Of a DNA stretch of 64,000 nt, positions 3,640 to 57,353 are shown piece after piece. Where the stretch lies: NCBI RefSeq assembly GCF_029542785.1, contig NC_083374.1, positions 62,001 through 126,000 on the forward strand, given 5' to 3'. Position numbers and translations under genes: made by a program. Every line of letters begins with the position of its first letter. The stretch's first letter is position 1. The notes beneath the pieces are model-generated. The model was not told the DNA's origin, ran no database searches, and worked only from the letters and a program-made list of their open reading frames with translations. This stretch comes from Malassezia japonica. Taxonomy: Eukaryota; Basidiomycota; Malasseziomycetes; Malasseziales; Malasseziaceae.

Positions 3640-4921
3640 TACTTGACACGCGCTTGGTACAGCACGCACTCTTCGGTCCCTGTCGCGCGCGGCGCGCCGT
3701 GCTCGGCAATCTCGCCGCGCAAGAGCACCGCCGCGTGGACGCGGCTCCAGCGCGCGCGCGACGCGCGCGCGTGCTTCACGAGGAGACCTTCGAGGCTCGA
3801 CCCCTTTTTCGTGCCCGCGGTCGCGGCGAGGTCCTGCAGGAACGGCGTAAGCTCCTCGCGCACCCACTGCGTGCGCATCAAAAAGAGGTCCTGGAAACGC
3901 TGCGCCGGCGCAAGCGGCAGGCTCGTATGCGGAAAGTATTGGATCGTGACCGCCGCCGCGAGCGCCTGGGGCTGTGGATCGGCGGCCGGCGCGCTGTGTG
4001 TGTTGGTCGTCGCAAAGGACGTCGGGGGCGGGTCCAGGAGATAGAAGCCGTGCAGGAGCGCGAGGTGCGCCTCGTCCGCGAGCGGCCCGAGGGCCTTTTT
4101 CCACTCTGCGACAAACGTCAACAGGGGCATGCGCTGGGTGAGCGGCGCGGCGTACCTTGGCCTCGCGCAGGACGTGGATGCCGATAAAGCGCGCCATTTC
4201 CGGCGTCGCGAGCGCGACGTGCGTCGGCACGCCGCTCGGCAGCGGCGGCGCACAGAACCAGTCGCAGAGCACCTTTTCCGCGACCTCGGGCCGTGCGGCC
4301 ATCTGCAGCGCCTCGAGCGCCGGCGCGTACGGCACGCTCTCTGCGTCGCACGCCAGAATATCGAGCTGGTTCAACAGGACGCGGAGCAGCTCGTAGACAA
4401 ACGACGGCGCGACGCGGCGCATGTACCCTGTGTGAGTCGCGCTACGTACCGTCGAGGAGGACGACGTGCCGCTGCCGCAGCCCCTCTGCAAGCTCCTTCT
4501 CGCTCGCCTGCACGACCGAGCGCAGCTCGCTGGGCGTGTACCGCCGCGCCCACGCGCCCTCCTCCGCGTCGCCCGCGTACGCCGACGCGTCGAGCAGCGC
4601 GGTGATGCGGTCGAGGCGCGCAGACGTCGGCACGAGCTCCATTGTGTCGGTTGCGTTCTGGTGCATGCGCAGCTGCACATTCCCCGCGCTATCGTGCTCC
4701 ACGCCGCAAAGCAAGAGGCTGTTGCTTTGGGTCACTTGGCGCACCGCGTAGGTCGTGTCGGCCGTCGCGAGCGCCGCCTCGTCCACAAGCCGCCCATTGA
4801 ACGTAAGCGGCGGCGCGTCGCTCCCCGCCACGAGGTGCCCTTCAAGCTCTGGGGGGAGCTCGAGCAGGCAGTACGTCTTGCGCGCCGCCTGCGCGCCGGT
4901 CACCAACGCGACGCCCTCCAT
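3636..4921 (-). CDS. DCC1: Sister chromatid cohesion protein DCC1 (alternative RFC subunit)
   Basis: Spliced gene: exons 4450-4921, 4156-4427 and 3636-4133, introns both 22 nt (4428-4449 and 4134-4155), total 1242 nt and 413 residues with phases that fit. The N-terminal region (YCLLELPPELEGHL, then TTYAVRQVTQSNSLLLC) matches the Dcc1 family signature. Dcc1 joins Ctf8 and Ctf18-RFC, which loads PCNA and supports cohesion during replication. Translation without splicing stops within each intron, so splicing is required. The start is the only ATG that precedes the conserved LLELP block and leaves a 61-bp divergent promoter shared with the ECL1-type gene, with CACGTG at 4937-4942. The stop codon shares the CTAG palindrome with the exchanger gene's stop. 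Confidence 0.88.
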
Positions 4922-4982
4922 GCTTGCAGTGGAGGCCACGTGGGAATCTGCGCAGCAGAAAGACACACCCCGCCTTGACAGG

Positions 4983-7001: not shown

Positions 7002-7821
7002 CTACGTGTCGACCTGCCGGAGCCAGCCGCGGAGCAGCAGCGGCTCGACCTCGTCGCGACGCACGTACAGCCGCTCGCCGGCACGCAGCTGCATCGTCCC
7101 GCGCTCCGTCTCGACGTCCTGTGCGTCGCGCGTCACGAGCACCGTGATCATCAGGTCGTCGGGCGCACGCAGCGTGTTGGGCGGCGTGATTTTTGCATAG
7201 ACGCTCACCGCGGCGCCCGGCGCAAAGGACGCACCGCCGAGCGCGTTGCGCGCACTCGCGGCCGTCTGCCGCGCGGACTGAATGTGCCCGTCGTGCCGCG
7301 CGTGGCCGACGCCGGTCGCCAGGGGGAGCGTCACGTCGAGCACGTCGAGGTAGGTATCTTTGTACAGGCCCACAAGGCCCGAGTATGCACGCAGCCACTC
7401 GAGCTCCGTGTGGTCGAGCAGCGGGCGGATGGACAGCACATCCGCCTCGCCGCCCGCGTTCGGCGGCTGGTCCTCGTCGAGGACGAGCGCCAGGGCGCCG
7501 GCCTTGTCCCAGACGCGCCGCTTGAGCCACTCGAGGCGCTGGTTGTGGTATACGAGCATGCACCGCTTGTTGCGGTACGCCTGGAGATGCAGCGTCACGA
7601 GCTGCGCCGCAAGCGCAGGGTCCGCGCCGCTTCCGGACGCGGCGCGCGCCGCGTCGGCAAGCGGGACGAGCTGGGTATGCAGCTGCCGCGTCTCGAGCAG
7701 CACGAGTCGCATTTGCTCCGCACTGCGTTAGCTGAGCGACCTACTTGTACTGCCGCAGCGCGCCGGTCGCGAGACTCAGCTTCGCCTCCTGCACCAGCTC
7801 CAGCGCCTGCTCGGCCGGCAT
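7002..7821 (-). CDS. PSF1: GINS complex subunit PSF1
   Basis: Exons 7745-7821 and 7002-7722 around a 22-nt intron (7723-7744, GTAGGT...CTAACGCAG), giving 265 residues. Splicing joins LRQY to NAEQMRLVLL, restoring the N-terminal helix of Psf1. Family blocks follow: LQAYRNKRCMLVYHNQRLEWLK, then ELEWLRAYSGLVGLYK, and a C-terminal B-domain ending LLLRGWLRQVDT. GINS binds Mcm2-7 and Cdc45 in the replicative helicase. The 30-bp gap to the divergent tubulin cofactor gene holds three tandem ACGCG pentamers (7829-7843), the core of MBF/MCB cell-cycle sites, which would suit a replication gene. Confidence 0.9.
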
Positions 7822-7828
7822 GGTGGAA

Positions 7829-13139: not shown

Positions 13140-14472
13140 ATGGGGCCGAGTAGCTTGCTGGGCCAGCTGCGCGGTCTGGATGCGTTTGGACGTGTAGGTT
13201 GAGAAGCTAATCCAGACCGCAGACGACGCACGAATTCGCACCAATGTCGGCGCATTCATCACGCTTTTGAGCGCGGCGCTGGTTTGCATCCTGACGCTGA
13301 GCGAGTACTGGGAGTACCGCAAGGTAAACGTTGTGCCGCGCCTCGAGGTCGACCTTGCGCGCGATGCAAAGCTCGCGATTCGCTTGAACGTCACATTCCC
13401 GCGCGTTCCGTGCTATCTGCTCTCGCTCGATGTCGTCGATATCGTCGGCGATATGCAGATGGATATTAATCACGACGTCCAGCGTACGCGCCTCGACCGC
13501 GACGGCAAGCCGCTCGGCGTGCGTGGTGACCGCAGCCTGCAGGGTGATGCCGCGCGCTACCTCGCCGAGATCGGCCGCGGCCCCGACTACTGTGGCTCGT
13601 GCTACGGCGCCCAGGCGCCGGAATCGGGCTGCTGCAACTCGTGTGAGGACGTGCGCGATTCGTATGTGCGCTCCTCGTGGTCCTTTTCGAACCCCGACGA
13701 GATCCAGCAGTGCCGCGACGAGCACTGGTCGGAGCGCCTCAAGGAGCAGAACCACGAGGGCTGCAACATTGCCGGCGAAGTGCATGTGAACCGCGTGGTG
13801 GGTAACCTGCACCTGAACCCCGGGCGCGCATTCCAGCGGAATGACGTGCACACGCACGATCTCGTGCCGTATCTCCAGGGAACGGGCGATGAGTACCACC
13901 ACTTTGGCCACGTCATCCACGAGCTGAGCTTTGGCACAATGTACGAGTTTATCGGCCAGCGTGCCGGCCGCCAGGACTCGAGCTCGAGCAAAAAGATGCA
14001 GCTGGGCCTCCGCGACCCGCTCCAAGGCCGCCGTGCGCACACCGAGCAGAGCCAGTTCATGTACCAGTACTTTCTCAAGGTCGTCCCGACCGAGCACAGG
14101 AAACTGAACGGCCGCACGCTCGAGACGTTCCAGTACAGTGCGACCTCGTACGAGCGCGACTTGAAGCCTCATGACCCCAACCTCGGCCACGACGAGCCGA
14201 CCAAGACCGAAGGCACCCTCGTGCGCACCGTCGAGGGTGTTCCGGGCGTCTTTTTCAACTACGAAATCTCCCCTCTGCGCGTCATTCAGACCGAGACCCG
14301 CGCGACGCTGTGGCACTTTTTGTCGAATTTGTGTGCGATCGTCGGTGGTATCCTGACGCTCGCGGGCCTGCTCGACGCCGTCATCTACCGCGGCCGTAGG
14401 CAGCTCGGCAACGCGCCGGCCTACGACGAGCACGACGGGTTCTACAATGGCCTGGACACGAAACTCTTGTAA
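13140..14472 (+). CDS. ERV46: ER-Golgi COPII vesicle cargo receptor ERV46
   Basis: Exon 1 is 13140-13193 (18 codons), intron 13194-13215 (22 nt, GTAGGT...CTAATCCAG), exon 2 13216-14472; 436 residues. Splicing creates LRGLDAFGR-TADDARIRTN, the classic Erv46 cytosolic start, followed by TM1 (AFITLLSAALVCILTLSEYW). The luminal domain has the paired Cys motifs YCGSCYGAQ and CCNSC; TM2 (LCAIVGGILTLAGLLDAVIY) lies near the C-terminus. Erv46 works with Erv41 in COPII/COPI cycling and retrieval. The ~53-bp gap to the divergent Uds1 gene has two CACGTG palindromes (13102-13107, 13112-13117). Confidence 0.93.
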
Positions 14473-14494: not shown

Positions 14495-15899
14495 TTACCT
14501 GTCGACCTCACCGAACACCAGGTCCATGGTACCGATGATGGCGACCATGTCGGGCAGGTAGTGGTGGCGCGCCATAAAGTCGGCACCGGCCAGGTGGCGG
14601 AAACCGGGCGCAGAGATGGAGCAGCGGTAGGGGCGGTTGGTACCGTTCGAGACGAGGTACACACCCATCTCACCCTTGGGCGCCTCGATCGCCGAGTAGG
14701 TCTCGCCGGGGGGAACCGCGTAGCCCTCGGAGAAGAGCTTAAAGTGGTGAATCAAACTCTCCATCGAGTCCTTCATCATCGAGCGCGAGGGCGGCGAGAT
14801 CTTGTGGTCGTCGACCTTGATCTGGCCCGCGGGCATCTTGTTCAGGCACTGGTGGATGATGCGCAGCGACTGGCGGAACTCTTCCATACGGCACACGTAG
14901 CGGTCGAAGCAGTCGCCGTTCTTGCCGACCGGGACGTCGAACTCGCACTGGTCGTATGCATCGTACGGCTGCATCTTGCGGACGTCCCAGGGGATACCCG
15001 AGCCACGGAGCATCACGCCACTGAAACCGTAGTCAAGCGCCTCCTGCGCAGTGACACGGCCGATGCCAATCGTACGCTGCTGCCAGATACGGTTGTTGGT
15101 CACCAGCTCCTCAATCTCGTCGATGCGGCCGGAGAACTGCGTGCACCAGTGGTAAATGTCCTCGAGCAAACCCGGGGGGATGTCATACGTCACACCACCG
15201 GGGCGGATGTAGGCGGCGTGCATACGCGCACCCGACACACGCTCGTAGAACTCCATAATCTTTTCACGCTCCTCGAGACCCCAGACGAATGGGGTGAGAC
15301 CACCGACGTCCATAATGTGCGAAAAGACGGCCATACAGTGGTTCGAGACACGCGTAAGCTCACCAAACAGGGTACGGATCCACTTGGCACGCTCGGGGAC
15401 CTCGATGTTCAGCAGCTTCTCGACGGCACGCGAAAAGCACAGCTCGTTGGTCATCATCGAACCGTAGTCGAGACGATCAAAGTACGGCAGCGCCTGCGTG
15501 TACGTCTTGTATTCAATCAGCTTTTCCGTGCCACGGTGGAGCAGGCCGACGTGAGGCTGGGTGAGTGGCTGGGCAACGTACGTCAACACGGAGGATCTCT
15601 TCACCGTTCAGCTCCATAATCAGACGCAGCACACCGTGCGCAGCAGGGTGCTGGGGACCAAAGTTGACGGTAAAGTGACGCAGACTCGCATCCCGAGACG
15701 TACCCTCCTCACGGAGGAGCGTCGAGGCATCGTGGCCCTGGAGGTCTTCGACGGTCGTCGCCGAGTGCGTCGGGTTCTCCATCTTCTCGGTAGCATAGCC
15801 ACGCACGGCCATGCGCGAGAGAGGAACGCTCGCCGACGCATTGCGGCGCGCAATACTAGCACCTGCCGTACGCAGCGCGCGCGGAAGCATCGCAACCAT
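14495..15899 (-). CDS. NUO49: NADH:ubiquinone oxidoreductase 49-kDa subunit (NDUFS2)
   Basis: Exons 15582-15899 and 14495-15556, intron 15557-15581 (25 nt, GTACGT...CTCACCCAG); 459 residues. The N-terminus ([20 protein letters not shown]) is a plausible presequence. [28 protein letters not shown] and LDYGSMM are the quinone-site signatures of this subunit of the complex I peripheral arm. Splicing restores [12 protein letters not shown] exactly. A CCAAT box (GCCAATC on the gene's strand, 16019-16025) lies about 120 bp upstream of the start, consistent with HAP-type regulation of respiratory genes (inference). Confidence 0.96.
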
Positions 15900-16894: not shown

Positions 16895-18040
16895 CTACGG
16901 TGTCTGCTCGAATTGGTCGAGCATCTGGGTAAGCTGCGTGCACGTACCTCGTCCGTGGCCAGTCGCATCTCGTTCGCCATGCGGTGCACCTCGGTGTCGG
17001 GGCGGTTGTACATGAGCGCATTCGCAAACATGAGGCTCAGTGCGCGGCGCAGATCAAGCGCCGACGCGATCGTGCCCTCCTTAATGCGCTGCTTGATGAG
17101 TTTGAGGTCCATAGGCTGCTTGATGAGCGAATAATAGTCCGGGGCATCCGCTTCTTTGATTGCCTGGTGAAAGAGGTTGCCGTGCGTGTGATTCGACACC
17201 TCGTTGTGCAGCATAAGCAAGACCTGCGTCGTGCGCCGCCGGCTCTTGTCGCGCTCGGCGTCCGACACGCCGTCGGTCCCGTGGCCGTCCTCGCTGGCAG
17301 AGTGCTCGTCGGCCTCGGGCGTCGCTCGCCGCGAGCGCCGCGTGGTGCGCCCCGGCGACGGCGTGCGCGAGAGCGACTCGTCGGCCGTCAGGCTGCGGCC
17401 GCGGCTCTCGGTTCGCCGCCGTGCACGCGACTTGTATGTCGTCGCAGGCTGCGGCGTCCGTTCTTCCCGCTCGGGCGTCTCAGGGACATGTGCCTCGGCC
17501 GGCCCATCGTCGCCAAGCAGGTCCTGCTCGACTTGCAGGTGCTCGTCGGCCTCGTCGTCGTCGTCAGCCGACGCTTCTGCGGCCTCGGCACGCCGCTTGC
17601 GCCGCGGCGTCTCGTCTGGAATGCCGGCCTCTTCGCGCAGGCGCTCGTCCAGCTTGCCGCTCTCGAGGTCCTGCAGGCGCTGGTGGAGATCGCTGGGTGA
17701 GGGAAGGCACGTACCGGAACTTGGTCTCCTTTTCCTTGATCTGCTCGTGGATTTCGCCAAGGCGCGCTGCGTACAGCTTTTGTGCAAGCGCAAGCTGCGC
17801 ATTCCTCCCCGACTTGGGCGCCTGGGCATCGCCTTCTTCGGTGATCGCGTGGCCGAGCATGAGCGACTTCCACGCCTGCTCACACTGCCCCGCGTTCCAC
17901 TGTGTCCTCTTCTCCAGCACCAGAGGGTGCGTAGACAAAAGCGACGCTACCTTTTCCCATTCCGGCGGACTCGCCGCAACTTGGTACACGGCCTGAGCGA
18001 GGAGCAGCTGCTCCCACAGCACGCTCGGCCCTGCGTCCAT
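16895..18040 (-). CDS. Bromodomain protein (Brd8/Bdc1-like)
   Basis: Exons 17715-18040, 16948-17692 and a 30-nt last exon 16895-16924; introns 17693-17714 (22 nt) and 16925-16947 (23 nt). The product has 366 residues. The N-terminus (SVLWEQLLLAQAVYQV...EWEKVASLL) resembles the SANT-like start of Brd8-type proteins; the middle is acidic and Arg/Ser-rich. The C-terminal bromodomain (about 245-355) has DYYSLIKQPMDLKLIKQRI and the acetyl-lysine Asn in FANALMYNRP. Brd8/Bdc1 subunits belong to NuA4/SWR1-type chromatin complexes; that assignment is inferred from domain order. The start could also be ATG 18097, which overlaps the start codon of the divergent methyltransferase in one CATG. Confidence 0.78.
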
Positions 18041-18095: not shown

Positions 18096-19434
18096 ATGAC
18101 GGCGGAGGACGAGCGGATGGACGCCGAGGCCCAGGCCGTGGATCTGTACGACAAGAAAGATGAGGCGTACTTTTCATACTACTCGCAGCTGACGCACCAA
18201 GCACAGATGCTTCAGGTACGTTGCGAAATTAATGCAGGACGCTGTGCGTACGTCGGCCTACCAAAATGCCATCCTGGCCCACGGCCCGGCATGCTTCCAG
18301 GGTACGTGGCTTGGCTCACGCAGGCAAAACGGCGATGGACGTCGGTGCCGGAAACGGAATCTTGTCTCTCTTTTCGATCCAGGCGGGCGCCGCGCTCGTG
18401 TACGCCGTCGAGGCGTCGGACGTCATCGGGTGTCTTCACCGCCTGGTCGCCGCGTCGTCGGGGGAGGACGAGAATGCGCCGAACGCGTGGATGCGCGACC
18501 GGCTCGGCGTGGTGCACTGTACGTACAGACGCTAACGCAGCGCGCGTCGAGGACGTCACGCCCCAGGTGCTCGAAAAGGCGACGCCCCGCGGCTTGCTGC
18601 CGGCCGACACGGAGCAGGTGGACACGATCGTGTCCGAGTGCCTCGGTGTGGTATGTACTCCATCTAACCCAGCTCTTGGTGCACGAGCGGATGTGCGAGT
18701 CGTTCTTGGAGGCGCGCGACAAGTTTCTGCGCCCCGGCGGCGCGCTCTTTCCCCGCACCGGCACGCTGTGCTTCTCGCTGCTGAACGACGCGCGCCTCTG
18801 GCAGGAGGTGCGTGCGCGTGCGGACTGGTGGAACACGACCAACTTTTACGGCGTGGACCTCACGCCGTTTTTGGGCGCGTCGCGGACCGAGGCCTTCCAG
18901 AGCCCGGTCGTGGGCTGCTTCTCGCCGACGCACGTCGTTGGGGCGCAGACCGACCTGAGCACCGCTGCGATCCTGTGCCCCGACGAGGCGGTGTGCAAGT
19001 ACCTCGTCGACTTTGGCACCGTGTCGAGTGCGGATCTGCGCACGTTTGACGTGCCGATCGCCTTTGACTGCGTCGACGAGCCGACCGTCGTGCACGGACT
19101 CGGGGCGTGGTTCGACCTGTCTTTCCTGCAGCCCGGCGAAGTCGAGGAGGACGACCTGCAGCCCCGAAACGCCATGACTACCAGCCCCTTTGCGCCGCCG
19201 ACACACTGGGCGCAGGTCCGTATGCTCTTCCACGAGCCGCTGGCCTTGAATACGGGCCAGCGCGTGCTCGGCACGCTGCATTTCGAGGCGAACGAGAGCC
19301 GCTCCTACGACATCCACGCCGACCTCTATGTGCCGCTGCCGGACGGTATCGGCGGCAACACTCCCCTCTTTCGTCGCACGGCCCTCTGGAAGCTCGACAA
19401 GCAGACCTATTCCTGGGAGACGCCGGGCGCCTAA
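18096..19434 (+). CDS. CARM1/PRMT4-like protein arginine N-methyltransferase
   Basis: Five exons: 18096-18215, 18238-18301, 18324-18518, 18541-18650, 18673-19434. All four introns are 22 nt; total 1251 nt, 416 residues. Features in order: [30 protein letters not shown] (PRMT helix Y), SAM motif [21 protein letters not shown] with the ribose-binding Glu, the double-E loop SECLG...VHERM, and the THW loop [10 protein letters not shown]. These fit a type I enzyme closest to CARM1, which lacks an orthologue in budding yeast. No N-terminal PH-like domain is visible. Likely substrates are chromatin and RNA-binding proteins. It is divergent from the bromodomain gene, with CACGTG at 18067-18072 between them. 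Confidence 0.85.
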
Positions 19435-25951: not shown

Positions 25952-26919
25952 ATGCCCGGGGTGTCGGCGGCCAGGACCATTGCGTGGGTGTGCGCCGAGG
26001 AGGCGCTTCCGCGGCAGCTCGCGCTCGAGACGAGTGCGCGCTTGTCCAGTGGTAGGTAGCTGGCCTCACACAGGCATAGTCGGCGTGAGCCAGGACGAAA
26101 TCCAGGAGGCGTACGCGCGCGAAGAAGGCGTGGCTTGGGCTATCGAAAACGCGTACTACGATGCCGACGTGTGGATGCGCTTTGGTTCCTATGTAAGTGG
26201 TGCTCCTGCTGCGATCTTGCTGGTGGACCGTGAAATGGTACGTGCTGTGGCTTATGCAGCCTGCGACGCGCCATGCCGAGGTGCTGCAGCGTCTCGAGCG
26301 TGTGCACAACCTGACCGGCTTTGACCTGGACGTGTCGCTGGTCGTCGGTGTGCCGTCGCGTGAAAAGGCGTCGAGCATGTCGCTCGAGGTCGACGAGGTG
26401 TATGCAATGGGCGGCTGGGAGTACATTGATCTGGGCGATACGGACGAGGACCCCGCGACGCGTCTCAAGGACGCCTTGATGGTGCACATGTGGGAGGGCA
26501 TGCGCCCAAAACAAGCGCAGCCGACGCCGAGCAACGAGAATGTCAAGGAGCGCATCGCGCACATGGACCAGTCAGCCGCGGCGCTGCCGCGCTCGGGCGG
26601 CGCTATCCCGCCCGCGCCGCGTGCGATGCAAGCGTCTGCCGAGCGCTTTCTGTCGGATGCGCCCCCCCAGGATACCCCCGACGACGACTTTAGCGAGTTT
26701 GTCGAGGCGCCCGCACCCGACGTGCCTACGGATGCCGAAGTCGACGCGTATTGTGCACGGCTCGGCCTTGGGACGCTCGGCATGGACAGCATGCCCGTGC
26801 TCTTTGAGCGGCTGCGTGGCGAGATGGAGCGTGTTCGCAGCCTCCCCCCCGGCCCCCCCAAAGAGCACGCCGCGGCGCTGGTCGCTCTTGCTGTAGAACG
26901 TTCGCTCGAATCAGAATGA
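25952..26919 (+). CDS. Alpha/gamma-adaptin-binding protein p34 (AAGAB)-like
   Basis: Exons 25952-26051, 26074-26237, 26260-26919; both introns 22 nt; 307 residues. Central WAIENAYYDADV matches the WTIDNKYYxAD signature of AAGAB/p34. The C-terminal helical segment FERLRGEMERVRSLPPGPPKEHAAALV matches the conserved p34 tail. These proteins have a Rag-like GTPase fold and chaperone assembly of AP-1 and AP-2 adaptors. Residues from Y (GSY) through ILLVDREM are coding, not intron: the only short intron in that stretch is the 22-nt one at 26238. Confidence 0.75.
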
Positions 26920-30002: not shown

Positions 30003-30853
30003 ATGGAGCGCCTTCCCCCCCTCACGGCGCTGTGCCGGCGAGGTACGTAGCGGAGCTTACGCAGTGGTCCTACGGCACCTGAGTGGTACGCACTCTGACT
30101 TATGCAGCCGTGCACGACTTGGGGGATATGCCCTACCGCCTCGCCAAGCCGCTGCTGCAGCAGTGCAGGCCCGAGCAGCTGCGCGAGCTCGAGGCGGCGT
30201 CGCCGGTACGTCGTATCGCTCACGCAGCACCTCGCGGAAGATACACAGGGTGCGTTTTCTTTCTGATGCAGAAATATGGAAGCACGCGTGCTTGCGCGAC
30301 TTTTCTGACCTGCGAAAACTCGACGAAGAGCACAAGCTCGGGGACGTGGCGAGCTGGCGCGCCTTGTACGATGTACGCCGCAAGACTAACGCAGGAAAAG
30401 CAGGAACATATCGAGGCCGCCAAGGCCGCGGCGACCGCACGCATCAAGGGGCGGTACGCAGAGCACAGCGCGCAAAAGGACGCCAAGAAGCTCGTTGTGA
30501 GCGACGTCGCGCTGCGGCCGACACGCGGCCGCCACCGCGCTGGGCCGCGCGTGCCGGCCACGCCAGGGCAGGCAATGATGGCGCGCGCACGCAACGGCAC
30601 GGCGATGCAGACGCGGCGCATGATGCTGATTCCCCCACGCGCCCCGTCGCGTGGCTTTGTCCGCGCCGCTCCGTCCGTGCGTGCGCCGCGCACGGATGCG
30701 CCGCCGGACGCGCCGCAGGCTGCGCCCAGCGCGCCGCGGCCCGCGGCACTCCCTCCGTCGCCGGTGCGCGCGAAACGGCCGCCGCCAGAAGGCCAGAGCA
30801 TCTTTATGCCCAAGCGCCGCATCCCCTCCCAGCCCCACCATAGTCACGTGTAG
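30003..30853 (+). CDS. ELA1: Elongin A, six exons with five 22-nt introns
   Basis: Exons 30003-30042, 30065-30085, 30108-30205, 30228-30249, 30272-30372, 30395-30853; every intron is 22 nt and the phases close to 246 residues. The start MERLPPLTALCRRVVLRHL contains an Elongin BC box (LxxxCxxxV), which intron 1 interrupts. DLGDMPYRLAKPLLQQC is the Elongin A F-box-like region. Splicing of introns 3 and 4 yields SPHLAEDTQEIWKHACLRDF, matching the family's W..H...DF block. The C-terminal ~120 residues are Arg/Pro-rich. Elongin A with Elongin C targets stalled RNA polymerase II for ubiquitination. Exons 2 (21 nt) and 4 (22 nt) are as short as the introns. Confidence 0.88.
30043..30394 (+). other. 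Cluster of five 22-nt introns and two microexons in ELA1
   Basis: Introns at 30043-30064, 30086-30107, 30206-30227, 30250-30271 and 30373-30394. Each begins GTACGT, GTACGC or GTGCGT and ends with an NTNAY branch-like motif followed by GCAG (CTTACGCAG, CTTATGCAG, CTCACGCAG, CTGATGCAG, CTAACGCAG). Exons of 21 and 22 nt lie between them. The reading frame and family motifs are restored only by removing all five. Confidence 0.88.
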
Positions 30854-30881: not shown

Positions 30882-32005
30882 ATGTCGTTCAACTTCACCT
30901 GGCCTGCATTCTCAGGGGAGTTTTACGAGAACGCGATCCAGACGCTGAATACCGCGCTGAACCGCGGCCCCAAGCCCAAGGTCATTGCCGGGGACATCCA
31001 GGTGAAGGAGCTGCATATGGGCACGGTCGTACGTCGCGTAAACTCACGCAGCCTCCGGAGCTCGAGATCCTTGAGATTGGCGACCTGAGCCGCGAGCGCT
31101 TCCGTGGCATCTTTCGGCTGATGTATGCAGGTGACGCGCACCTCGAGCTGTCGACGAGCGTGCAGGCGAACCCCCTGGCGAAGCCCGCGTCGGCGGGCGC
31201 GGGCCTGTTTGCGACCCCCGCCGCGGAGCGCGGCATGCTCTTTGCCGCGAGCCCCCTCACGGTGCCGATGCGCGTGCGCCTCAGCGAAGTGCATCTTCGC
31301 GCGATCGTCGTGCTGGTCGTCTCGCGCACAAAGGGCATTACGCTCGTCTTTAAGAACGACCCGCTGGAGAGCGTCAAGGTTTCGTCGACGTTTGACAGTG
31401 TCGGTGTCATCCAAAAGTACCTACAAGAAGAGATTGAGGCGCAGCTGCGCGAAATGTTCCGCGAGGACCTACCTACGATCATCCACCGCCTCAGCCAAGA
31501 GTGGCTGCGCACGGATCCCGCGCCCCGCCAGGCGCCGTCCACGCCGGCGGCCAAGCCGCGGCCGGAGCCCGAGTGGCCCGTGCCGCCGCCCGAGGAGCCG
31601 CTGGCGTTCCTCTCGCTGGACGATGCGCCGCCCCGCGCGTCACCCGCGGCGGTGCGCCTCGCGCACCTCGCGTCGGAAAACAGTCCCCACGGCCTCGCGG
31701 ACCTCTTTGCGCCGCCCGAGTCGCCCGCGGCGCGCGCGCGCACCTTTCACGCGACGAGCCGCGTGCGTGCGCCGCAGACGCCGGTTGGCACGCCCCCCCG
31801 CCTGCGCGCCGAGCCGGCGTTTGGGGGCCTCGAAATGTCGGGCCACCTCGCCGAGCTGCTCAAGGCGAACCACACGCTCTCGCCCTATACGCGGCAGGCG
31901 CGGCATGTCGCGATACGCAGTGCGCCTGGGCACAAGCAAGGGCGTGTAGGCCGTGTCCATGCACGCCAGCGGCGGCGATTTCAGCTCGGCGGCCAGGCCG
32001 AATAG
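30882..32005 (+). CDS. MDM34: ERMES subunit MDM34
   Basis: Exons 30882-31028 and 31052-32005, intron 31029-31051 (23 nt); 366 residues. The SMP domain fills the first ~205 residues: [76 protein letters not shown] and [15 protein letters not shown]. These are near-diagnostic for Mdm34/Mmm2, the outer-membrane part of the ER-mitochondria encounter structure that moves lipids with Mdm12 and Mmm1. [18 protein letters not shown] is the conserved C-terminal motif. Using a 26-nt intron from the upstream GTCGTA would remove one Val. It ends 5 bp from the convergent MYST gene. Confidence 0.93.
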
Positions 32006-48003: not shown

Positions 48004-48129
48004 GGTTGCTGCACGAGAGAAGAAACGCCTGCGTGCCCATAGCCGGGGCGTGGGCGCCGGGCCGGTACCCACGTGGCCCCACGTTGTCATTCGAACTAAG
48101 CACGCACCTTCGTGGCACGGTTCAGTGCG

Positions 48130-50097
48130 ATGGCCGACACCTTTTTGTCGCTGCCAGAGTTCTTTGAAAACGACATAGGCGAGAGTCTCCTATGCCGTAC
48201 GGAGACGCTCGGGTCCTTCCGTGAGCTGGGTCCTCCGGATTTATGCCATGTGCTCAAGTCGAACGGACGCAAGGAGGTTGGGTCCTACCACTATGTTTCG
48301 GGCGTAGACGCCTCGTCGTCTGCGACGCTCGCGACGTACATCACGAGTCTTGCATACGAGATGGAGCACCATCCCGCGTGGTTCAGTAGCAAGTCGCCCT
48401 ATAAGCTCAAGGGCGGCGTGTACTGCTGCTTCAACGCAATCTCGCGTGTTGATCTCCGCGTCGAGGTCTGCATTCCGGGTAGCGTGCAGACGTACGTGGT
48501 GAATGTGCGCGGCGAGCGCCAAGAGGCTACACCAGAAATCTGGCAAGAGACCTACCTTTCGGCGGTGCTCCGCGCGATCCTCTATGCGGATGATGCCAAC
48601 TACCGCCTCGCGGGCTACCGTAAGCTCGACCCCATTCCGACCTTGGAGCACGAGTTCCGATTTTTGCTTGCTGCCGAGAACCTCTTTTTCAAGGGCTGGC
48701 AGCTGGGCAGCGAGCCCGAGATACAGGTGGCCACGATTGTCCACAACCATCTTTCAGCAGGCATCCTGAAATACTTTGGCGAGTCGTCGCGGTACGAGCA
48801 GGCGGTGAATCTGTTTGAGAAACTGTGGGCGCGTGAGCCAGAAGTGGCAGCGTTGGTCGCCAAGTCGTACCTCGGCATGAACCAGGAGGTGAAGGCCGTA
48901 CAGATTATGCACCGTTCGCTGCAGCAAAACCCGCACAGCTACGTGCTCCTTCACGTCCAGTGCGACTTCCTCCGGAAAAAGGGACAACTGGATTGGGCTA
49001 TTCGGCTTGCAAACCAGGCGGTAAGCTGCGCGCCGAGCGAGTTTGTCACCTGGGCCAAGTTGGCCGATTGCTTGGTGGATGCCGGTGAGTGGTCGGCGGC
49101 GCTCTTCACACTCAATTCGTGTCCCATGTTTACGTATAATGAGCGGGATCTGCACCGCATCCCTGAAGCTGCCCGGACGCACTTCCCGATTCGCCCTCTT
49201 GCGGCGCAGAGCAAGCTGCTCGACGAAGACAGCGCGAATGACAACGAGGCCGACGTCGCTCTCCTCCGTTTGCCTGCCCCGGCGTTGCGCGGTACCTTTG
49301 CGAGCGCATACGGCATCCTTACCAAGCTCGCGAACAAGATTGGTTGGGACGAACTGCTCAAGTGCCGATCGGAAGTGTTTGTGATGGAAGAAGAGTACCG
49401 CACCCAAAATCCTAGCCAAGAAGAGGTCAAGCAAGGTGAAGGAAGCGAGAAGTCTGGTTTGATGCAGCAGCCGGAAGCAGCAGGTGCTGCGGAGGAAAAT
49501 GGCGCTCTTCCGAAACACAGGCATGAATCGGGACATTGGCTGTCGTTCACAGACAAGCGCCTGTGCGAACGCTGGCTGGATAACCTGTTCATGGTGCTCT
49601 ATGAAGACCTGCGTGTCTATACGATTTGGCGTGCAGAACTTGCGCACTACCAGGCGCAATCGATGCCTTTCCGCAAGACAGGAACGGACTGGGAGATCTT
49701 GGGCGAGCTGGCACTCCGCCTGCACCACCCGGAAGAGGCACACGAGGCATTCCTGCAGTGCATTGGGCAAAAGTTTAGTCCCAAGGCATACCAGCGGCTT
49801 TTGGAGCACTGCGTCGAGATCAACAATCTGGAGCAGTGCTTGTCTATGGCTCTGTACCTCACCGCGTACAACTACCGCTGGTATACCGACTGTGTCTTCC
49901 CCGGGGCCGTCGCGACGAGTCTCTTCAAGTTGATCAACACCGAGGGACTGAGCAAGGTCTCCAACACGCTCATTTCCATGAAGCCTCCCCCGGCTATGCT
50001 CCGTCTGATGCAACGGGTACGTCGTAATTACCGCACATGCTAACCACAGTACTTTGCCTACGCGCAAGAATTCCGGATTCCCGGGTCGCAATTCTAG
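48130..50097 (+). CDS. ChAPs-family exomer subunit (Bch1/Bud7 type)
   Basis: Exons 48130-50016 and 50050-50097, intron 50017-50049 (33 nt); 644 residues. The start gives LPEFFENDIGESLLCRTETLGSFRELGPPDLCH, then a TPR-rich body (YEQAVNLFEKLWAREPEVAALVAKSYL) and a last exon encoding FAYAQEFRIPGSQF, the conserved C-terminus of ChAPs proteins. With Chs5 these form exomer, an Arf1-dependent cargo adaptor at the trans-Golgi that exports chitin synthase and other cargo. The intron is the only one in the window with a length divisible by three; it contains an in-frame TAA. Confidence 0.9.
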
Positions 50098-50333
50098 GCG
50101 CAGTGATCGTTTCCACGTGGCGAGGTTCAGGGACCTGATCAAAATTGGAGCCGCATTTAGAACCGAAAACCCCGATGCCCGTGCCTCGATTTGGACTGGC
50201 GAACTAGTGACTGGCCGGAATTGCAGATGAATGGCCCAAGATTTTGGCATGGCAGTGTAGCTCTACCTAGTGCATAAATTCCCTGGCCGATCTTTCCTCC
50301 TACCTCTTTCCTCTTTTGTCCAAGCTAAAATAC

Positions 50334-52093
50334 ATGGTAGAAGAGGAATACCCGCGCCATGATTCGCATGACACTGTGAAAGTGTCATCATCTACAGCTT
50401 CAGTACGTATTGTTGTTTTGCAGGGACAGACTCCTAACATGGCAGGCACCTTTAGATTCCCAGGCTTATCATGGAAACAGTGAAAAGGATGCCCAAGAAG
50501 ATGTGAATAAGCTCAGCAGTGCCCCAGGCGAAAGGGGCCAAACTGGTGAAAATAATGACCTGGAGCGGGGGCCTGTCAAGGAGGGAGAGTACATCGACGA
50601 TGCTATCCCGACCGAGCTGCCCGACGGTTTGGTCGACGCCAAGAAAGCCAAGGGCTGCTCGTTGGTGCAATGGGACAATCTGGACGACCAAGAGCTAGCA
50701 ACGAACTGGTCGTCCATTTATCGTTGGTATGTTACGATGATGGTGTGCGTCATGACGGTTACGTCGACGATCGTGTCGTCGGCGCCTTCGCAACTTTTGA
50801 CGCAGCTGTCGGAGCATTACCAAGTAAGCGAAGAGGTTATCAAGGTCGCAGTCTTTGTTTTCTTGGCTGGGTATATCTTTGGGCCCATCTTCTGGGGCCC
50901 CTTGTCGGAACTGTATGGCACACGGCTCATGCTTTTTTTGTCCGGTATCGGAGCGACGGTCTTCAATGTTGTCTGTGCTCATTCGCCCAACATTGGTTCT
51001 TTGATTGTATTTCGATTCCTCGCGGGTGTGTTCGGCTCGTGCCCCTTGGCCATTGGCGGAGGCGTAATGGTGAATATCTGGCATAAAGAGATCATGGGTA
51101 TCGGCATGGCAATCTTTGCGTCGGCACCTATGGCTGGTCCAGCGCTCGGCCCTTTGGTTGCAGGTTGGATTTCTATATCGGGTACCACCTTTCAATGGGT
51201 CTTTTGGTCGATGGCTATGTTTTCTGGAGTAATTACGTTTATTGTGACGGTTACGGTTTTGGAGACCAACCCAGGTGTAAACTTAGTCAAGAAGGCCAAA
51301 CGACTGAGAAAGCAAACCGGCAACGATCGATTGAAGGCACCATTTGAGGTACGAAAGATCGATATCAAGGAATTGGCAACAAACCGCCTGATCACCCCGG
51401 TTCTCATGCTCATGGTATGTAAATGTCTCGCCCCAGTTTGCTAACGCACAGATGGAGCCTATGCTCTTTGCGATTACTCTGTATGTTGCATTTGTCTATG
51501 GCGTTCTCTACCTCTTTTTTGACGCCTATCCTGTGGTATTTGTGGAACATCATGGGCTCAACCCGGTGTTAACCGGATGTACATTCTTGCCGTTTCTGGT
51601 GGGGTGTGTTCTTGGCACTGTTTTCTACGCGTTCTTCGAGAACAAAATCTATCTGAAAAGGCTCAATGCGAGTCCCACCGACTCACTCCCCCCTGAATTT
51701 CGAATTCGGTCTACCATTTATGGGGCCCCCATTCTGGTCATCTCTTTGTTCTGGTTTGCATGGACCTGCTTACTTTCCGGTTCAAGGATATGGTCGCCGA
51801 TCGTTGCAGGCGGATTTTTCGGTCTGGCGATCTTTTTCATCATGTTCAGTCTGTTCACATACCTCGCAGACACCTACAAGGGCATGACTGCTAGCGCTAT
51901 TGCAGCTAATACTATGGTTCGGTCCGCCTTTGGTGTTGGGTTCCCTCTCTTTTCCACTCAAATGTACCACAAGTTGGGCCCGCCTATTGCAACGACCGTT
52001 CTAGCTTGTATTGCTGTCGTCATGCTTCCTATTCCATTTGTACTATACAAGTTTGGGCCCTACCTGCGTTCGAAATCCCGGTACGCAGCCTAA
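50334..52093 (+). CDS. MFS transporter, DHA1 family (polyamine/drug type)
   Basis: Exons 50334-50402, 50446-51414, 51452-52093; introns 43 and 37 nt, the longest in the window. 559 residues. A ~100-residue acidic cytosolic N-terminus (VEEEYPRHDSHDTVK..., SLVQWDNLDDQELATNWSS) precedes about 12 TM segments. Motif A-like GPLSELYGTRLML and motif C-like APMAGPALGPLVAGW mark DHA1 drug:H+ antiporters; the N-terminal WDNLDD-ATNWS signature is frequent in polyamine and fluconazole transporters. Base composition and codons are clearly more AT-rich than in neighbours. Exon 1 is inferred from splice signals and matching phase. Confidence 0.85.
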
Positions 52094-53016
52094 ATGGTTT
52101 GCGTTCCAGCGTTACAAGCAACGATGTTGGAATGTAATACTACTCTGTCATTTGCCTTAATGAGCTATGTGAATTCTCACGAACCTCGCATTTTTTAAAA
52201 AATTGACTGTTGCAAACTACGCTAGGTGTACCTGACATGGAGAACTGTAGAGTGCACCTGCATTTTATCCTACATTCAGTTTTCTGAAACTCGGTAGCTA
52301 AGCAAAATCGACTTGCCCCCAAAAAAAAAATAGAATCGCGCTGTTCCTAACAAAGGGATGATCAAGCAAGCGTTGAACGTGGGGTGAACGGACAAATGCT
52401 ACAGGGCTACATGCTTACCGGCGAAGTGCCTGAATCTCGCTTAACCTCTATTAAGAACATTATGCAGCTCCGCCATGGGGCGTGGCCTGAGTAACGATTC
52501 TGATTGGCTTGACATTACGACAAACCAACTCGCTTGGCACAGCTACTTGGCTAGCAGCATGACAAATGACGCAGAAATTCCATTGGACGGGAGAATTCAG
52601 GAACGAACCCGGCCGATTGCATGACTTCATGTCCCTCCCCCTACAGGTGATTGCGTATCAAAACACAAGCGAATTACCTGTTCACGTGCTTGAAATTCGG
52701 CATTTGAGTGATAGACTGATTGAGGCCACGGATCGATTGCCTGATATGGCGACAATGATTGGCCAAAATTTGTCATGCATTCAGCAGCAAGTCCCGTTTC
52801 GGTATTGTTATTTCGGTATTCGCTGAACTTTCGATAGCGAGGAATCGTGCGGTCCAGTCAAACTGCAGGTCAAAGGAGACGAACAGTACTGTGCCTAGCT
52901 GCCCGGTATTGAGTTTCCAGGCCAATAATAGGAAGTGGGTTCTCTACCAAGCGCCCTCCCCCCTTAACTTGTACAACCTTCCTTGCCATCTGCCGCGCTG
53001 CGTCGTGTTATGACAT
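52094..53016. other. Large AT-richer intergenic region
   Basis: About 0.92 kb, the longest gene-free stretch. It has a poly-A run of ten (52322-52331), a ttttttaaaaaa segment (52192-52203) and CACGTG at 52683-52688. Small open frames here (for example 52566-52826) lack coding character. It probably holds the MFS 3' UTR and a long Myb-gene leader. Confidence 0.5.
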
Positions 53017-54351
53017 ATGGTGATTGCTCCCTCTAACACGCAACCCAGCAACTGCGTCGACCGTCGCAAGTGGACGCCAGAGGAAGATGCCCTCCTGACG
53101 AGGGCCATGGCTCGCTTCCGTCACATGCAAGAGATCCGTTGGACCGAGATCGCCGCCGAAATCCCCGAGCGTTCTGCCAAGGCCTGCCGCAAGCGCTGGG
53201 TCAACGGTCTCAACGAGCGCTTGAAGAAGGGTTCGTGGACGAACGAGGAGGACGAAAGGCTCCGAGAGGGAGTTGCGATGCTTTCGAGCGATTGGGCTCG
53301 CATTGCCGATCATGTGGGCCAGCGCTCGGGAGACCAGTGCAGCAAGCGTTGGAGAGAGGTGCTTGACCCTGCCATCAACAAGACGAGCTGGACTGCCGAG
53401 GAGGACCAGCTCCTCACTCAGCTGTTCCATAAGCACGGCTCCTCATGGCAAGTCATTTCGACCCACTTCAACAACCGTCGCGCTCTGCAGTGCCGCAACC
53501 GCTGCTGCAAGCTGCTTGGTCTCCATTCCTACCCCCGTACGAAGAAGTCGCCGGTTGAGAAGAAGGCCAAGATTTCGGCGTCGCAGTCGCCGTCCTTGCA
53601 CGTTTGCTCGCAGGGTGAGGTGCCGACTTCGCCCACGTACATTGACATGCCGAGCAGCATGTGGCCCAGCCTGAACATGTCGACCACTCACGAGCCCATG
53701 TCGGGCGCGCACGCGTTTGTGCCCGATCAGATCTTTAGCGGAAACATGCTTCAGAACGGCAATGCTGGCCAGGCATGCATCTCTCCGATCTCTCCGCTGT
53801 TTAACCAAGGCTGCAACCAGCAGGCCCAGGAGGACAATATGTTGGAGAATGGAAGCTCGCAGGGTCTGACTTCGCTGGACTCGTGGAACAAGGTTCAAGG
53901 ATTCTCATCGCTCCAGCGCAAGGACCCTCCTGCTGCTCTCAACCTCAATGACCCGATCACTCAATCTGTGGGCGCTAACGACCAATTTTATTCACCGTTC
54001 TTCGCCTCTCCTTCGTTGTGTTCGAGCATCAGCACGTCGCCTACGACTCCGTCGGGAACTGATACCCTTGCTTTGCAAAGCACATCGAACCCGTCGACGA
54101 TGCTGCCCTCGCCGATGGTGCAGCACCAGATGCCGACTCCGATGAACGACCGCTTCAGCTACGCTGCTCCGGCATCCGTGATGCCGGCTGAGAAGAATAT
54201 GAATGCTATGAACTGGAACATGTATTGCGACAAGCTTGTATCGCTGCAAACGCCCCAAAATCCGGCCGGCCATGATGGAATGTTTTCTTCGATAATGAAC
54301 AATGCGACGTCCACGAACCCCATGGTCTGGCTGCCAGACATGCAGTTCTAA
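53017..54351 (+). CDS. Myb-type transcription factor with three repeats
   Basis: 444 residues, no intron. Three tandem Myb repeats occupy about residues 16-170: RRKWTPEEDALLTRAMARF, KKGSWTNEEDERLREGVAML with DWARIADHVGQRSGDQCSKRW, and NKTSWTAEEDQLLTQLFHKH with SWQVISTHFNNRRALQCRNR. Each keeps the spaced Trp or equivalent. The remainder is Ser/Asn/Met/Pro-rich, like an activation domain, ending NPMVWLPDMQF. It is the only sequence-specific DNA-binding factor recognised in the window; targets are unknown. Confidence 0.88.
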   Translation: MVIAPSNTQPSNCVDRRKWTPEEDALLTRAMARFRHMQEIRWTEIAAEIPERSAKACRKRWVNGLNERLKKGSWTNEEDERLREGVAMLSSDWARIADHVGQRSGDQCSKRWREVLDPAINKTSWTAEEDQLLTQLFHKHGSSWQVISTHFNNRRALQCRNRCCKLLGLHSYPRTKKSPVEKKAKISASQSPSLHVCSQGEVPTSPTYIDMPSSMWPSLNMSTTHEPMSGAHAFVPDQIFSGNMLQNGNAGQACISPISPLFNQGCNQQAQEDNMLENGSSQGLTSLDSWNKVQGFSSLQRKDPPAALNLNDPITQSVGANDQFYSPFFASPSLCSSISTSPTTPSGTDTLALQSTSNPSTMLPSPMVQHQMPTPMNDRFSYAAPASVMPAEKNMNAMNWNMYCDKLVSLQTPQNPAGHDGMFSSIMNNATSTNPMVWLPDMQF

Positions 54352-54717
54352 AGGTGCGAATCATTACGTTTTCCTACGAATGCGTTTCTGAGAAGAATTT
54401 TACAATATGGATTGCTAATTTCTTTTGACGGGACTAGCGCCATGGAAGACACCATTGTGGTATTGCATTCCACGACCCTCAATAGTTTCGTCGGATTTTT
54501 TTTTTGTAATGGTATATGATACGACATTGATATCTCGGAGTATTTTCTCGCCTTCATGGTTTGTCCGAGCCGGTGTATGTAGCACGTCGGCGCTATGGCG
54601 TTATCTCGGAAAATTGCGCCGCTGGTAATGCAGTGGCGTTATGTAGGCGTTGTGGCGTACAATGTTGGTCCGCCGCGTGCCTGCATTTCACCACGTGGTT
54701 TCATTCTGCGTGCCACC
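54352..54717. other. Gap between Myb gene and DUF1748 gene
   Basis: 366 bp, AT-rich on its left side with a run of ten T around 54498. CACGTG lies at 54692-54697, 21 bp before the DUF1748 start codon. No gene was seen. Confidence 0.5.
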
Positions 54718-54959
54718 ATGTTTGGCCGCGTGGTACACTTGGTGGTGGACGCGATGCTGATCAGCGTCGTGCTCTCGGGCATCAAGCGCAACACTGGGCT
54801 CACATTGTCGCTCGCGCGTATTCCCAACCGAGATGTGCGCAAGTTTTTTAGCGCGTACCTGGAAGCCGGCGAATGGGTACGTCGAAAGCACTCACGCAGC
54901 TGATGGACTTTGCTGTCGTGATTCTTGGTCGGAGCAGCAGCTTTGAGCGTATCCGCTGA
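54718..54959 (+). CDS. Small DUF1748 protein
   Basis: Exons 54718-54876 and 54900-54959 around a 23-nt intron (54877-54899, GTACGT...CTCACGCAG); 72 residues. MFGRVVHLVVDAMLISVVLS, GIKRNTGLTLSLARIPNRDVR and, across the splice, YLEAGEW-LMDFAVVILGRS match the short fungal DUF1748 family, whose role is not established; one hydrophobic segment could be a membrane helix. The splice is needed to reach the conserved C-terminus (SSSFERIR). Its length is typical for the family. Confidence 0.85.
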
Positions 54960-55024
54960 GAGTTCCTTTATATACCCTATACGACCAATCTCATGAACAC
55001 CTGCAGTACTCTAATGGTATACAT

Positions 55025-57353
55025 TCATGCGGTCGCGCCCGCCGAGGCCAGCTGCAGCGCGCCCAGCCGTTTGTTGATGCTTTTCAAAAACTTCTCCACG
55101 GTGGAAACAGAGTTGGTCGAAAGACCCATGCGGTCTTCGCTGGGGTCAAGCAGCCCTAGCAAGAGCGATGATGCGGTTTCGTACGCCAGCATGCAGCTCG
55201 TCGGGTCCCAGTGTAGACCATCGCGGTTCCCCTCGAGCTCGTCGAGGGCCGCCGCACGAGCCAGCTCGAGTGCCTTGTCAAAGATTTGGCGGTCGACGTG
55301 CTGGATGCTGTCCGGCAAGGTGTGCGAGCTGCAGCAGCTCCGGGCGTACATGGAGCGCTCGTAGCACTCGTTGAAACGCGCACGGAACCAATAGGCGAGT
55401 TCGCGCATCTCTGCCGTCGGATCCGTGTCCTGGAGCGATTCTGCGTAGCCATTGATTGCCGTCAGGCCGCGCTGCAAAAAACTCAGCGCGCGAACGTAGA
55501 GTGCGAGGCCCTCTGCCGCGGTGTTCTCTTGCATGTGTAGCGCGGCGGAGTTGGGGCTGCTGCCCACCGGGCTGATTCCCCCCTGCGGCAGTCGCGAGCC
55601 GTTGTTGTACTCCGAGATCTTGGCGTCGGCAAACTCGCTCAGTACGTACGACTTTTGCGCAAACCCCTTGAGCATGGCCGCGAGATCGTCGTCGCTGGCA
55701 TCCGCAAACGGCGCCGCATGCGTAGTGGTGGCCGGCATCGACATCGGTTTGCCCGACAAGGGTTGCACGGTCGACGGGTCTTGGAAGGAGGCCGAGCGCA
55801 CGGGATCCGCATGTTCAGGGCGCGGCGATCCAAAGAGGTGGTTGCCCGCCAAGCTGATCGCGCGCGATAAGGCACTCGGAGGCAGCGCGCCACGCTCCTG
55901 CCCCTCGGCCCGTTTCGGCAAAGGGAGCGGCGGTGTGGGCTTCGCCTCGGCCCCCGGCTCGAACCCGAACGCGGTGTTGGTGGTCCGGCTGCGGTCGTGG
56001 AGCGGCATGTCCATCAACCGGTTTGCCAGGGCCCCGTTCGTCTCGGCGTCCTTCTTATCAACTAGCACATAGTCGCGCGCTTCGTTAGCCGGCGGCGAGT
56101 CGTGCTGTGCTGGTGCAGAAGGGGGATAGGATGGCGACGTGTCGCGCATTTCCATATCGCCCTCGTGCCCCTCCTCGCGGGGGTGCACGAGCGAGGGCCG
56201 GTCCTCTTTGGACGCTTGCTCGGCCGGCGCCGGGGGGTCGTGCGAAGATGTGTAGGTGTGGTCGCTGAGCATCGACGCCGCCAAGTCGTCCTTGATAATG
56301 GCCCGTCCGACATACGGCACAGACACGATGATGTCGTCGTGGAAGAACTCGTCAAAGCTCACGCGCTCGACGGGATGCCGCTTGAGCAGTTTGCGAATCA
56401 AAGCCTTGATATCCGGCGCGACTTCGTGCGGCGGCAGCCGCGGCGGCTCGCCGTTGAGGCGCCGGCGAGTCGCATCGCGCTGCAGCGACTGCTGCGAGCG
56501 CTCGTCCGGAAACTTGATCCGGTCGTTGCTCTGTTCGATCCGGCGCAGGAGTTCCACGTGGTTCGTGGCGCGGAACGGTGGCTTGCCGACGGACATTTCG
56601 TAGAGCACCGCTCCGACGGACCACAGATCCGCCTTGGCGTCGTACTTTTCGTAGCGGAGAATCTCGGGCGCCATGTACAGCGGCGATCCACAGAGCGTCT
56701 TGGCGAGCGAGGCGGCCGGGAGCGAGCGTGCGAACCCAAAGTCGGCGACCTTGATCTGGGGAATTTCGCGCGGGTGTCCGCTTTCGAGGCACTCGTCGTC
56801 CGGGATGCGCAGCAAGAGATTCTGCGGCTTGATATCGCGGTGCACGATATCGCGGCTGCGCAGGAACCGCAGCGCGGAGGCGAGCTGCGTGAGGAACGAG
56901 CGCACCATGGCGTCGTTCAGCCCCCCATCTTCGGGATGCGGAAAGAGGCGGCGCTGCGCTGCCGCGAGCGGGTTGCTCAGTGCATCTCCACTCCATGGCG
57001 CGACATCGCCGCGCTTGCGGATGTACTGCGAGAGATCGCCGCCGGGGCAGTACTCCATGATCATGTGAATGTAGTCGTCCGTGTACAGGCAGTCGCGCAG
57101 GTCGACGATGTTGGTGTGCCGCATCGAAGTCAAAATCGAAATCTCGCCCTCCAAGTTCTCCAAGAGCTTTGGCGAGAGCTTGGCACGCGTCACCGATTTG
57201 ACGGCGACCAGCTGGCGCGGCGGATCCTGCGTGAGTCGCGGCACGTACGCGGTGGTGCGCTCTATAAACCTGAGCAAAGGAACCCTTGCCTATCTCATGC
57301 TCCAAAACGTAGTCGCCTACGCTTATCGGCTCCCCATTCCGTTCCGAGGTCAT
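55025..57353 (-). CDS. ATG1: Autophagy-initiating Ser/Thr kinase ATG1
   Basis: Exons 57249-57353 and 55025-57226, intron 57227-57248 (22 nt, GTACGT...CTCACGCAG); 768 residues. The kinase domain starts [20 protein letters not shown]; splicing joins [21 protein letters not shown], placing the catalytic Lys. [19 protein letters not shown] and MAPEIL follow. A ~30-residue insert ([20 protein letters not shown] region) sits before the catalytic loop. The C-terminal half has a linker and a helical MIT-like tail that in Atg1 binds Atg13. The divergent promoter has tandem TCACGTG elements. Confidence 0.93.

Follow-up and report, generated by a model that had tools for sequence, protein, structure and literature searches.

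Probable spliceosomal introns with a sharp 22-nucleotide length mode in Malassezia japonica

Uniform, ultrashort introns are a known kind. Those of the ciliate Stentor coeruleus measure 15 to 16 nucleotides (nt) (PMC9505925), those of mikrocytids are held narrowly at a floor of 16 to 17 nt with strongly conserved sequence (PMC10245619), and the intron-dense chlorarachniophyte nucleomorph, a relict endosymbiont nucleus, has introns in a narrow range of 18 to 21 nt (PMC10245619). The mikrocytid study proposes deletion down to a functional threshold (PMC10245619). Malassezia yeasts have compact genomes, in which very short introns have already been remarked (PMC9241646, PMC6473144, PMC4634964, PMC7426719). 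Here we describe this class of introns in a 64,000-nt stretch of Malassezia japonica DNA (bases 62001 to 126000 of contig C5, NC_083374.1; hereafter the window, in whose own numbering positions are given unless a contig is named) and across the genome, which comprises 8,433,779 bases in nine contigs. Published values for M. japonica (G+C content 62.35%, nine predicted centromeres) suit this contig number and the G+C contents given below better than does that for M. slooffiae (66.31%) (PMC7025860).

Very short introns are not new in kind for the genus, as indicated by a review that speaks of "very short introns" in Malassezia genes (PMC7426719) and by the annotation of M. restricta, for which the minimum intron length was set to 20 and 15 (PMC6473144). 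The 2,150 introns of M. restricta have a mean length of 37.2 and a median of 30 (PMC9241646), and two M. globosa annotations give mean introns of 76 and 79 (within the group PMC9241646, PMC6473144, PMC4634964, and PMC7426719); the passages of these sources on other Malassezia introns contain no 22-nt mode. Open-licence literature on short Malassezia introns, a scope that does not extend to M. sympodialis proteogenomics, yielded no report of a 22-nt floor or mode or of the 17 + 5 anatomy described below, and a narrower open-licence search on fungal micro-exons yielded no report of micro-exons of the kind found here. Ustilago maydis, in the same subphylum, has ACTGAC as its commonest branch motif, but its median intron is 95 nt, unlike the 22-nt mode here, and Encephalitozoon cuniculi has a median of 32 over 13 introns (PMC2483917 Table 2). 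A sequence-only reading of the window had placed its introns among the shortest for any fungus, which fits the medians of M. restricta, E. cuniculi, and U. maydis, although precedent exists within the genus; its companion statement, that comparable sizes are known mainly from ciliates and nucleomorphs, is too narrow, as short introns are also described in mikrocytids (PMC10245619) and dicyemids (PMC2483917). Thousands of 22-nt introns are predicted in the genome, a length close to the lower limit known for any splicing system.

The length peak was examined with a frame-blind scan, in which each GTRNGT was paired with a downstream CTNAYN(C/T)AG at lengths of 12 to 120 nt in a 264-kilobase (kb) sample made up of the window and C1:200001-400000 (G+C contents of 0.636 and 0.613, respectively). 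There are 81 matches at 22 nt, 10 at 23, 1 at 24, 4 at 25, and 3 at 26 nt, with a thin background up to 120 nt; a single match is 19 nt long, and none is 20 or 21 nt. The reversed sequence gives 22 matches with every length represented at most once, and three Markov-resampled copies give 10, 5, and 14. The 22-nt mode is thus no artefact of the frame-based method of the sequence-only reading, which favored frame-breaking introns. Genome-wide, the exact 22-nt pattern (GTRNGNNNNNNNNNTNAYNYAG) occurs 3,431 times (1,748 + 1,683) compared with 90 times (49 + 41) when it is read backwards, an excess of about 38-fold, or roughly 3,300 matches above the control. The strict motif at lengths of 15 to 21 nt has 14 matches genome-wide against 9 in the control, and at 23 to 52 nt it has 628 against 30. 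This narrow peak with a sharp lower edge is also the pattern of the uniform ultrashort introns in Stentor, the mikrocytids, and the nucleomorph.

The reading frame shifts across these segments as expected of introns. Using a codon model trained on 49 long open reading frames (ORFs), we compared the coding phase upstream and downstream of the 88 22-nt matches in the 264-kb sample, and found that 67 favor the spliced frame, 9 the unspliced frame, and 12 neither; among the 66 confident cases these numbers are 58, 1, and 7, and the 58 spliced cases cover all three phases (22, 18, and 18). GT-N18-AG strings lacking the motif favor the spliced frame in only 136 of 1,015 confident cases, the motif read backwards has just four matches (one spliced), and 23-nt matches favor the spliced frame in 8 of 12. 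Chance GT-AG strings, frame errors, and a bias of the reader's method were rejected on the frame-blind scan and the frame test. The wider proposal that the segments are unspliced, whether as frame errors, programmed frameshifts, or chance strings, is extremely improbable in view of the motif excess, the preference for the spliced frame, and the catalytic motifs that are restored across exons of 3 and 7 nt (see below). The 22-nt segments are almost certainly real introns, and we infer that they are spliced out in the cell.

Homology points the same way within the window. A motif scan there produced 91 candidates, and the window counts given here are among the better-scoring ones listed. It recovered all 16 of the 22-nt introns specified by the sequence-only reading (11 by coordinate and five in ELA1), and the total of 17 that it gave is reached by adding the one at 17693. 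All 17 fit GT(A/G)NG...(C/T)TNA(C/T)N(C/T)AG, with the branch A lying 5 nt before the end. We compared eight spliced gene models with Pfam, and PRMT, ATG1, PSF1, and complex I with solved structures (PDB). Twelve of the 17 junctions are within Pfam or PDB matches (four in PRMT, three in ELA1, two in DCC1, and one each in PSF1, ERV46, and ATG1), and the alignment of ELA1 with Malassezia proteins, which takes in all five of its junctions, raises the number supported by homology to 14. The evidence for DCC1, ERV46, and ELA1 consists of match ranges, as it does for the PSF1 matches (E < 0.001) that cover the junction. Pfam matches above cut-off include DCC1 (3.5e-62), Elongin A (5.3e-28), COPII-coated ERV (1.9e-81), DnaJ (4.1e-24), Bromodomain (2e-19), and PRMT_C (6.1e-13), and the structure matches are CARM1 (8.9e-52), ULK1 (8.7e-54), PSF1 (6.7e-9), and the complex I 49 kDa subunit (2e-209).

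The two DCC1 introns (4134..4155 and 4428..4449, minus strand) carry the motif and have junctions at residues 249 and 158, within the Dcc1 match at residues 17 to 347. The PSF1 intron (7723..7744, minus) has its junction at residue 26, inside a match range of 3 to 103, and that of ERV46 (13194..13215, plus) at residue 19, inside an ERGIC_N match at 10 to 99; both carry the motif. In ATG1 (57227..57248, minus) the joined sequence YRAHHR/DPPRQLV is gapless against ULK1, and a 25-nt intron in the complex I 49 kDa subunit (15557..15581, minus) restores EILRVD/PHVGLLH, aligned without a gap. The gene for a bromodomain protein has a 23-nt intron with the motif (16925..16947, minus), whose junction at residue 377 is just past the Bromodomain match at 291 to 368, and the added 22-nt intron (17693..17714, minus), whose junction is outside that match. 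This last junction and the two of the AAGAB-like gene (26052..26073 and 26238..26259, plus) have the motif and an open frame only, the Adaptin_binding match of the AAGAB-like protein falling below cut-off (20.9 of 32 bits). The same applies to a 23-nt intron at 31029..31051 (plus), in a gene with no Pfam match.

Relatives were aligned across the PRMT and ELA1 junctions (for PRMT, 120 of 200 matches were listed and 10 aligned; for ELA1, 21 were matched and 8 aligned), and the proteins align across the junctions, so that intron removal restores conserved proteins. The listed PRMT relatives include proteins of M. brasiliensis (75%), M. vespertilionis (70%), M. equina, M. yamatoensis, and M. cuniculi (59%). 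All four PRMT introns are on the plus strand. The first (18216..18237) is gapless in those relatives that reach this far, two aligned proteins starting later; the second (18302..18323) and third (18519..18540) restore ACFQ/GKTAMDV and VVH/SRVEDV, which align in relatives, although in the M. equina model seven residues are missing after junction 2 and one is added at junction 3; and the fourth (18651..18672) restores ECLGV/LLVHERM without gaps. One of the late-starting proteins, P0007 from a metagenome, which covers 62% of the query at 97% identity, continues through intron 4 without a break. ELA1, also on the plus strand, has introns at 30043..30064, 30086..30107, 30206..30227, 30250..30271, and 30373..30394. 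All five junctions align with proteins of M. furfur and others, the first without a break in P0241 of M. furfur among others, and the last three are also within the Elongin_A match (residues 23 to 126); a 22-nt exon precedes intron 4, and the metagenome proteins P0243 and P0245 read through intron 5. Introns 1 and 2 enclose a 21-nt exon (30065..30085), and the M. brasiliensis model P0242 lacks exactly its seven residues, VVLRHLS.

The introns have a consistent anatomy. The consensus of the 88 22-nt introns in the 264-kb sample has GTACGT at bases 1 to 6, weak biases at bases 8, 9, and 13, and, at bases 14 to 18, C (99%), T (100%), N, A (100%), and C (82%), followed by N, C (90%), A, and G, where GT, R3, G5, T15, A17, Y18, Y20, and AG are fixed by the search pattern. 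The GTACGT-like start and CAG end are those of U2-type GT-AG introns, and the branch site CTNAC, with its A at base 17, matches the U2 recognition sequence. When the spacing was left free in the same sample, 144 matches were obtained, of which 72 had the branch A at base 17 and 13 had it at base 18; the A stood 5 nt from the end in 88, 6 in 18, and 7 in 8; the control gave 56 matches without a peak. Shorter spacings are no commoner than in the control, with the A before base 17 in 4 matches (7 in the control) and fewer than 5 nt from the end in 4 (4 in the control). The 14 genome-wide strict matches of 15 to 21 nt (9 in the control) are those with the A 5 nt from the end and before base 17. 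We considered 76 genome-wide matches with a CTNAC A at positions 12 to 16 and 6 to 10 nt to the end as exceptions to the 17-nt floor and rejected them, as 68 carry a second CTNAY at the usual place and the eight left compare with 17 in an unfiltered control. It looks as though 22 is the sum of 17 and 5, two spacings each with its own floor and with rare leaks. We note separately that these 88 introns have C at base +4 in 74% of cases and A in 1%, unlike the usual GTAAGT. U1 pairing and U6 methylation, the latter linked with METTL16, may thus be altered.

Searches for the splicing machinery identified U2 and U6 above the Rfam cut-offs, with GUAGUA intact in U2 and ACAGAGA intact in U6, as well as Slu7 (2.3e-91), Prp18 (1.7e-18), and a U2AF65-like protein (3.9e-66). 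Stentor likewise conserves the U2 branch-recognition site and the U6 ACAGAGA, and in both systems the branch A is 5 nt before the end, as the 10th base of 15 in Stentor and the 17th of 22 here, so that there are seven more bases before it in M. japonica (PMC9505925). The two differ in that CTNAC is a strong branch consensus here and Stentor is described as having none, and in that Slu7 and Prp18, listed as not available in Stentor, are present here (PMC9505925); their lack is a feature of the Stentor report and no general mark of the ultrashort-intron class. A tie between the short branch-to-end spacing and loss of Slu7 and Prp18 was rejected, both being present, and their loss is thus not needed for a spacing of 5 nt. 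The mikrocytids are parasites with 224 introns and a spliceosome of 17 to 19 identified proteins (PMC10245619), which contrasts with the approximately 3,300 above-control matches and the presence of the tested second-step factors in M. japonica.

Closely spaced introns delimit exons of only a few bases. There are 32 strict pairs of 22-nt introns no more than 30 nt apart genome-wide and none in the control, and the loci tested by homology (encoding Rieske, JmjC, and DUF1746 proteins) represent four of the 32 pairs. At C1:403157-403232 (minus), three introns surround exons of 3 and 7 nt, and their removal restores the second iron-binding box of a Rieske protein, VVVCPWHQYDF (Pfam Rieske, 1e-8; PDB 3d89, 2.6e-5, aligned across the spliced box). 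At C3:662867-662913 (minus), an exon of just three bases, TTT, completes HRDVYTSYSWSTN in a JmjC protein, whose HRDVYTSYSW motif is rebuilt by removing its 22-nt introns; with six such introns removed, the model matches JmjC (5e-18) and Cupin_8 (1.6e-19), its N-terminal end being provisional. VYTSYSW is present in six of eight aligned homologues, chosen from 120 listed. The third locus has a 7-nt exon (C7:497161-497211) in a DUF1746 protein (1.3e-9). We rejected the alternative of one 47-nt intron spanning both 22-nt introns and the 3-nt exon, which would yield WWH rather than CPWH and HRDD rather than HRDVY, in contrast to the homologues. Another of the 32 pairs encloses a candidate 15-nt exon, which was joined to its neighbors in the spliced gene model.

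Published Malassezia gene models seem to skip or misplace such tiny introns and micro-exons. Besides the M. equina PRMT and M. brasiliensis ELA1 models, the M. vespertilionis JmjC model lacks VYTSYSWSTNIA, and protein sets of the genus may therefore hold many small errors, although three models are too few to estimate their number. An Exobasidium JmjC model reads HRDD, as though the 3-nt exon had been skipped.

The explanation that we favor, and consider very probable, is that the 22-nt segments are U2-type GT-AG spliceosomal introns of the ordinary kind, reduced in this Malassezia yeast to a minimum of 22 nt. The layout would comprise GTACGT at bases 1 to 6, about seven freer bases, and the CTNAC branch site at bases 14 to 18, the floor being the sum of a branch A at the 17th base and five bases, ending in NCAG, to the end. 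Its 5' part may be set by the closest approach of U6, at the 5' splice site, to U2, at the branch site, and its 3' part by the distance that can be bridged between the branch helix and the 3' splice site; on balance we favor such a two-part steric floor. The sequence-only reading had proposed a steric minimum on the strength of the length peak, and the two separately limited spacings bear it out in part, with a steric cause still conjectural. Deletion bias in a compact genome could push introns down to the floor, and we lean slightly toward this drift as the route; it is the simplest account and resembles the one put forward for mikrocytids (PMC10245619). Introns 3 nt apart cannot accommodate two spliceosomes together, and introns separated by 3 to 7 nt would presumably be removed one after another.

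An alternative origin is by copying, with 22-nt introner-like units inserted at many sites, so that the fixed length would stem from the template instead of a limit. The highly uniform length and the sheer number of matches above the control would suit it, as would the two JmjC introns 3 nt apart where the metagenome relative P0124 has a single insert. Introners are expected as many near-identical copies, but all 88 of the 22-nt sequences in the sample are distinct, and bases 7 to 13, the seven in the middle, have a G+C content (0.609) close to that of the sample (0.618). The longer introns have the same ends with extra bases between them, and ELA1 introns 1 and 2 seem to be shared with M. brasiliensis. 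At precisely JmjC junctions 1/2, 3, and 5, P0124 carries insertions of 9, 12, and 10 residues, the size of retained introns of 27, 36, and 30 nt, and it has none at junctions 4 and 6; it thus seems to hold longer introns at the same positions. These inserts fit the shrinkage of shared introns and agree with the M. restricta median of 30, and we regard copying as very unlikely.

The lengths of the longer introns bear on a further possibility, that 22 nt is kept by selection on the reading frame, in which retention of an intron of 3n + 1 shifts the frame and leads to mRNA decay, and not by spliceosome geometry. The lengths 22, 25, and 28 are all 3n + 1, and among the first 100 of the 628 longer strict matches listed, 25 nt (19) exceeds 24 nt (12) and 28 nt (9) exceeds 26 (3) and 27 nt (5). 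However, 23 nt is the commonest longer length (39 of the 100), introns of 19 or 16 nt would be equally allowed yet lengths of 15 to 21 nt are near the control, and frame selection does not account for two spacings with separate floors. We consider it unlikely as the main explanation. The counts at 25 and 28 nt nonetheless hint at a preference for 3n + 1.

Several observations weigh against reduction to a spliceosomal floor. The excess at 25 and 28 nt is not predicted by a pure deletion-to-floor model, and the confident cases of the frame test include the one in the unspliced frame and the seven in neither frame. Three strict 21-nt matches and a single 20-nt match, in which the A falls at base 16 or 15, resemble real introns (C1:532423, C1:1494591, and C2:1291149, all starting GTAGGT, and C8:415433, respectively), and the floor may thus leak. 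Branch-to-AG distances of 3 to 5 nt are reported, on small numbers of introns, to be preferred in some other yeasts (PMC2483917), and the 5-nt limit is thus not universal. The U2AF match scores 224 bits, short of the curated cut-off of 310, and the Rfam model for U1 found no match, although that model matched in none of the controls, so the missing match is no evidence of absence.

As to the other intron lengths in the window, for which the sequence-only reading gave counts without positions, those for 23 (four), 33 (one), and 37 nt (one) agree with the candidates listed, whereas listed candidates of 25 nt are one fewer (four as opposed to five). Candidates of 28, 29, and 43 nt are present but more numerous (four, two, and two as opposed to two, one, and one), and two of the four 28-nt candidates are inside dehydrogenase ORFs and are doubtful. 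Most of the longer candidates (28, 29, 33, 37, and 43 nt) are in the part of the window from 40001 to 56000, where G+C content is lower (0.541 to 0.592 in 4-kb steps). Three tandem copies of a short-chain dehydrogenase gene are located at 39099-43642 (minus) beside a putative LigB-type dioxygenase gene (38044-39132), both named by eye from the translations, and a telomere-like near-palindrome, TAGGGTTAGGGTTTGGACCCTGACCCTA, is situated between two of the copies (41867-41896), about 104 kb from the contig start. An Rfam scan and a tRNA scan of the window gave no matches.

Minimum intron length is a direct constraint on the geometry of the spliceosome, and the known extremes, in ciliates, mikrocytid parasites, and relict nuclei, either resist experimental manipulation or depend on reduced machinery. 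We put it as nearly as likely as not that the M. japonica spliceosome, with Slu7, Prp18, and a U2AF65-like protein retained, works at a hard geometric 17 + 5 limit on thousands of introns, splicing across 3-nt exons by strictly sequential intron definition. A transformation system is reported for M. furfur and M. sympodialis (PMC5654937), and a transformable genus, with thousands of 22-nt introns and with the tested second-step factors, would make the intron limit measurable. If true, the 17 + 5 limit would directly gauge the tightest possible joining of the U6-5' splice site and U2-branch helices in a spliceosome without strong reduction.

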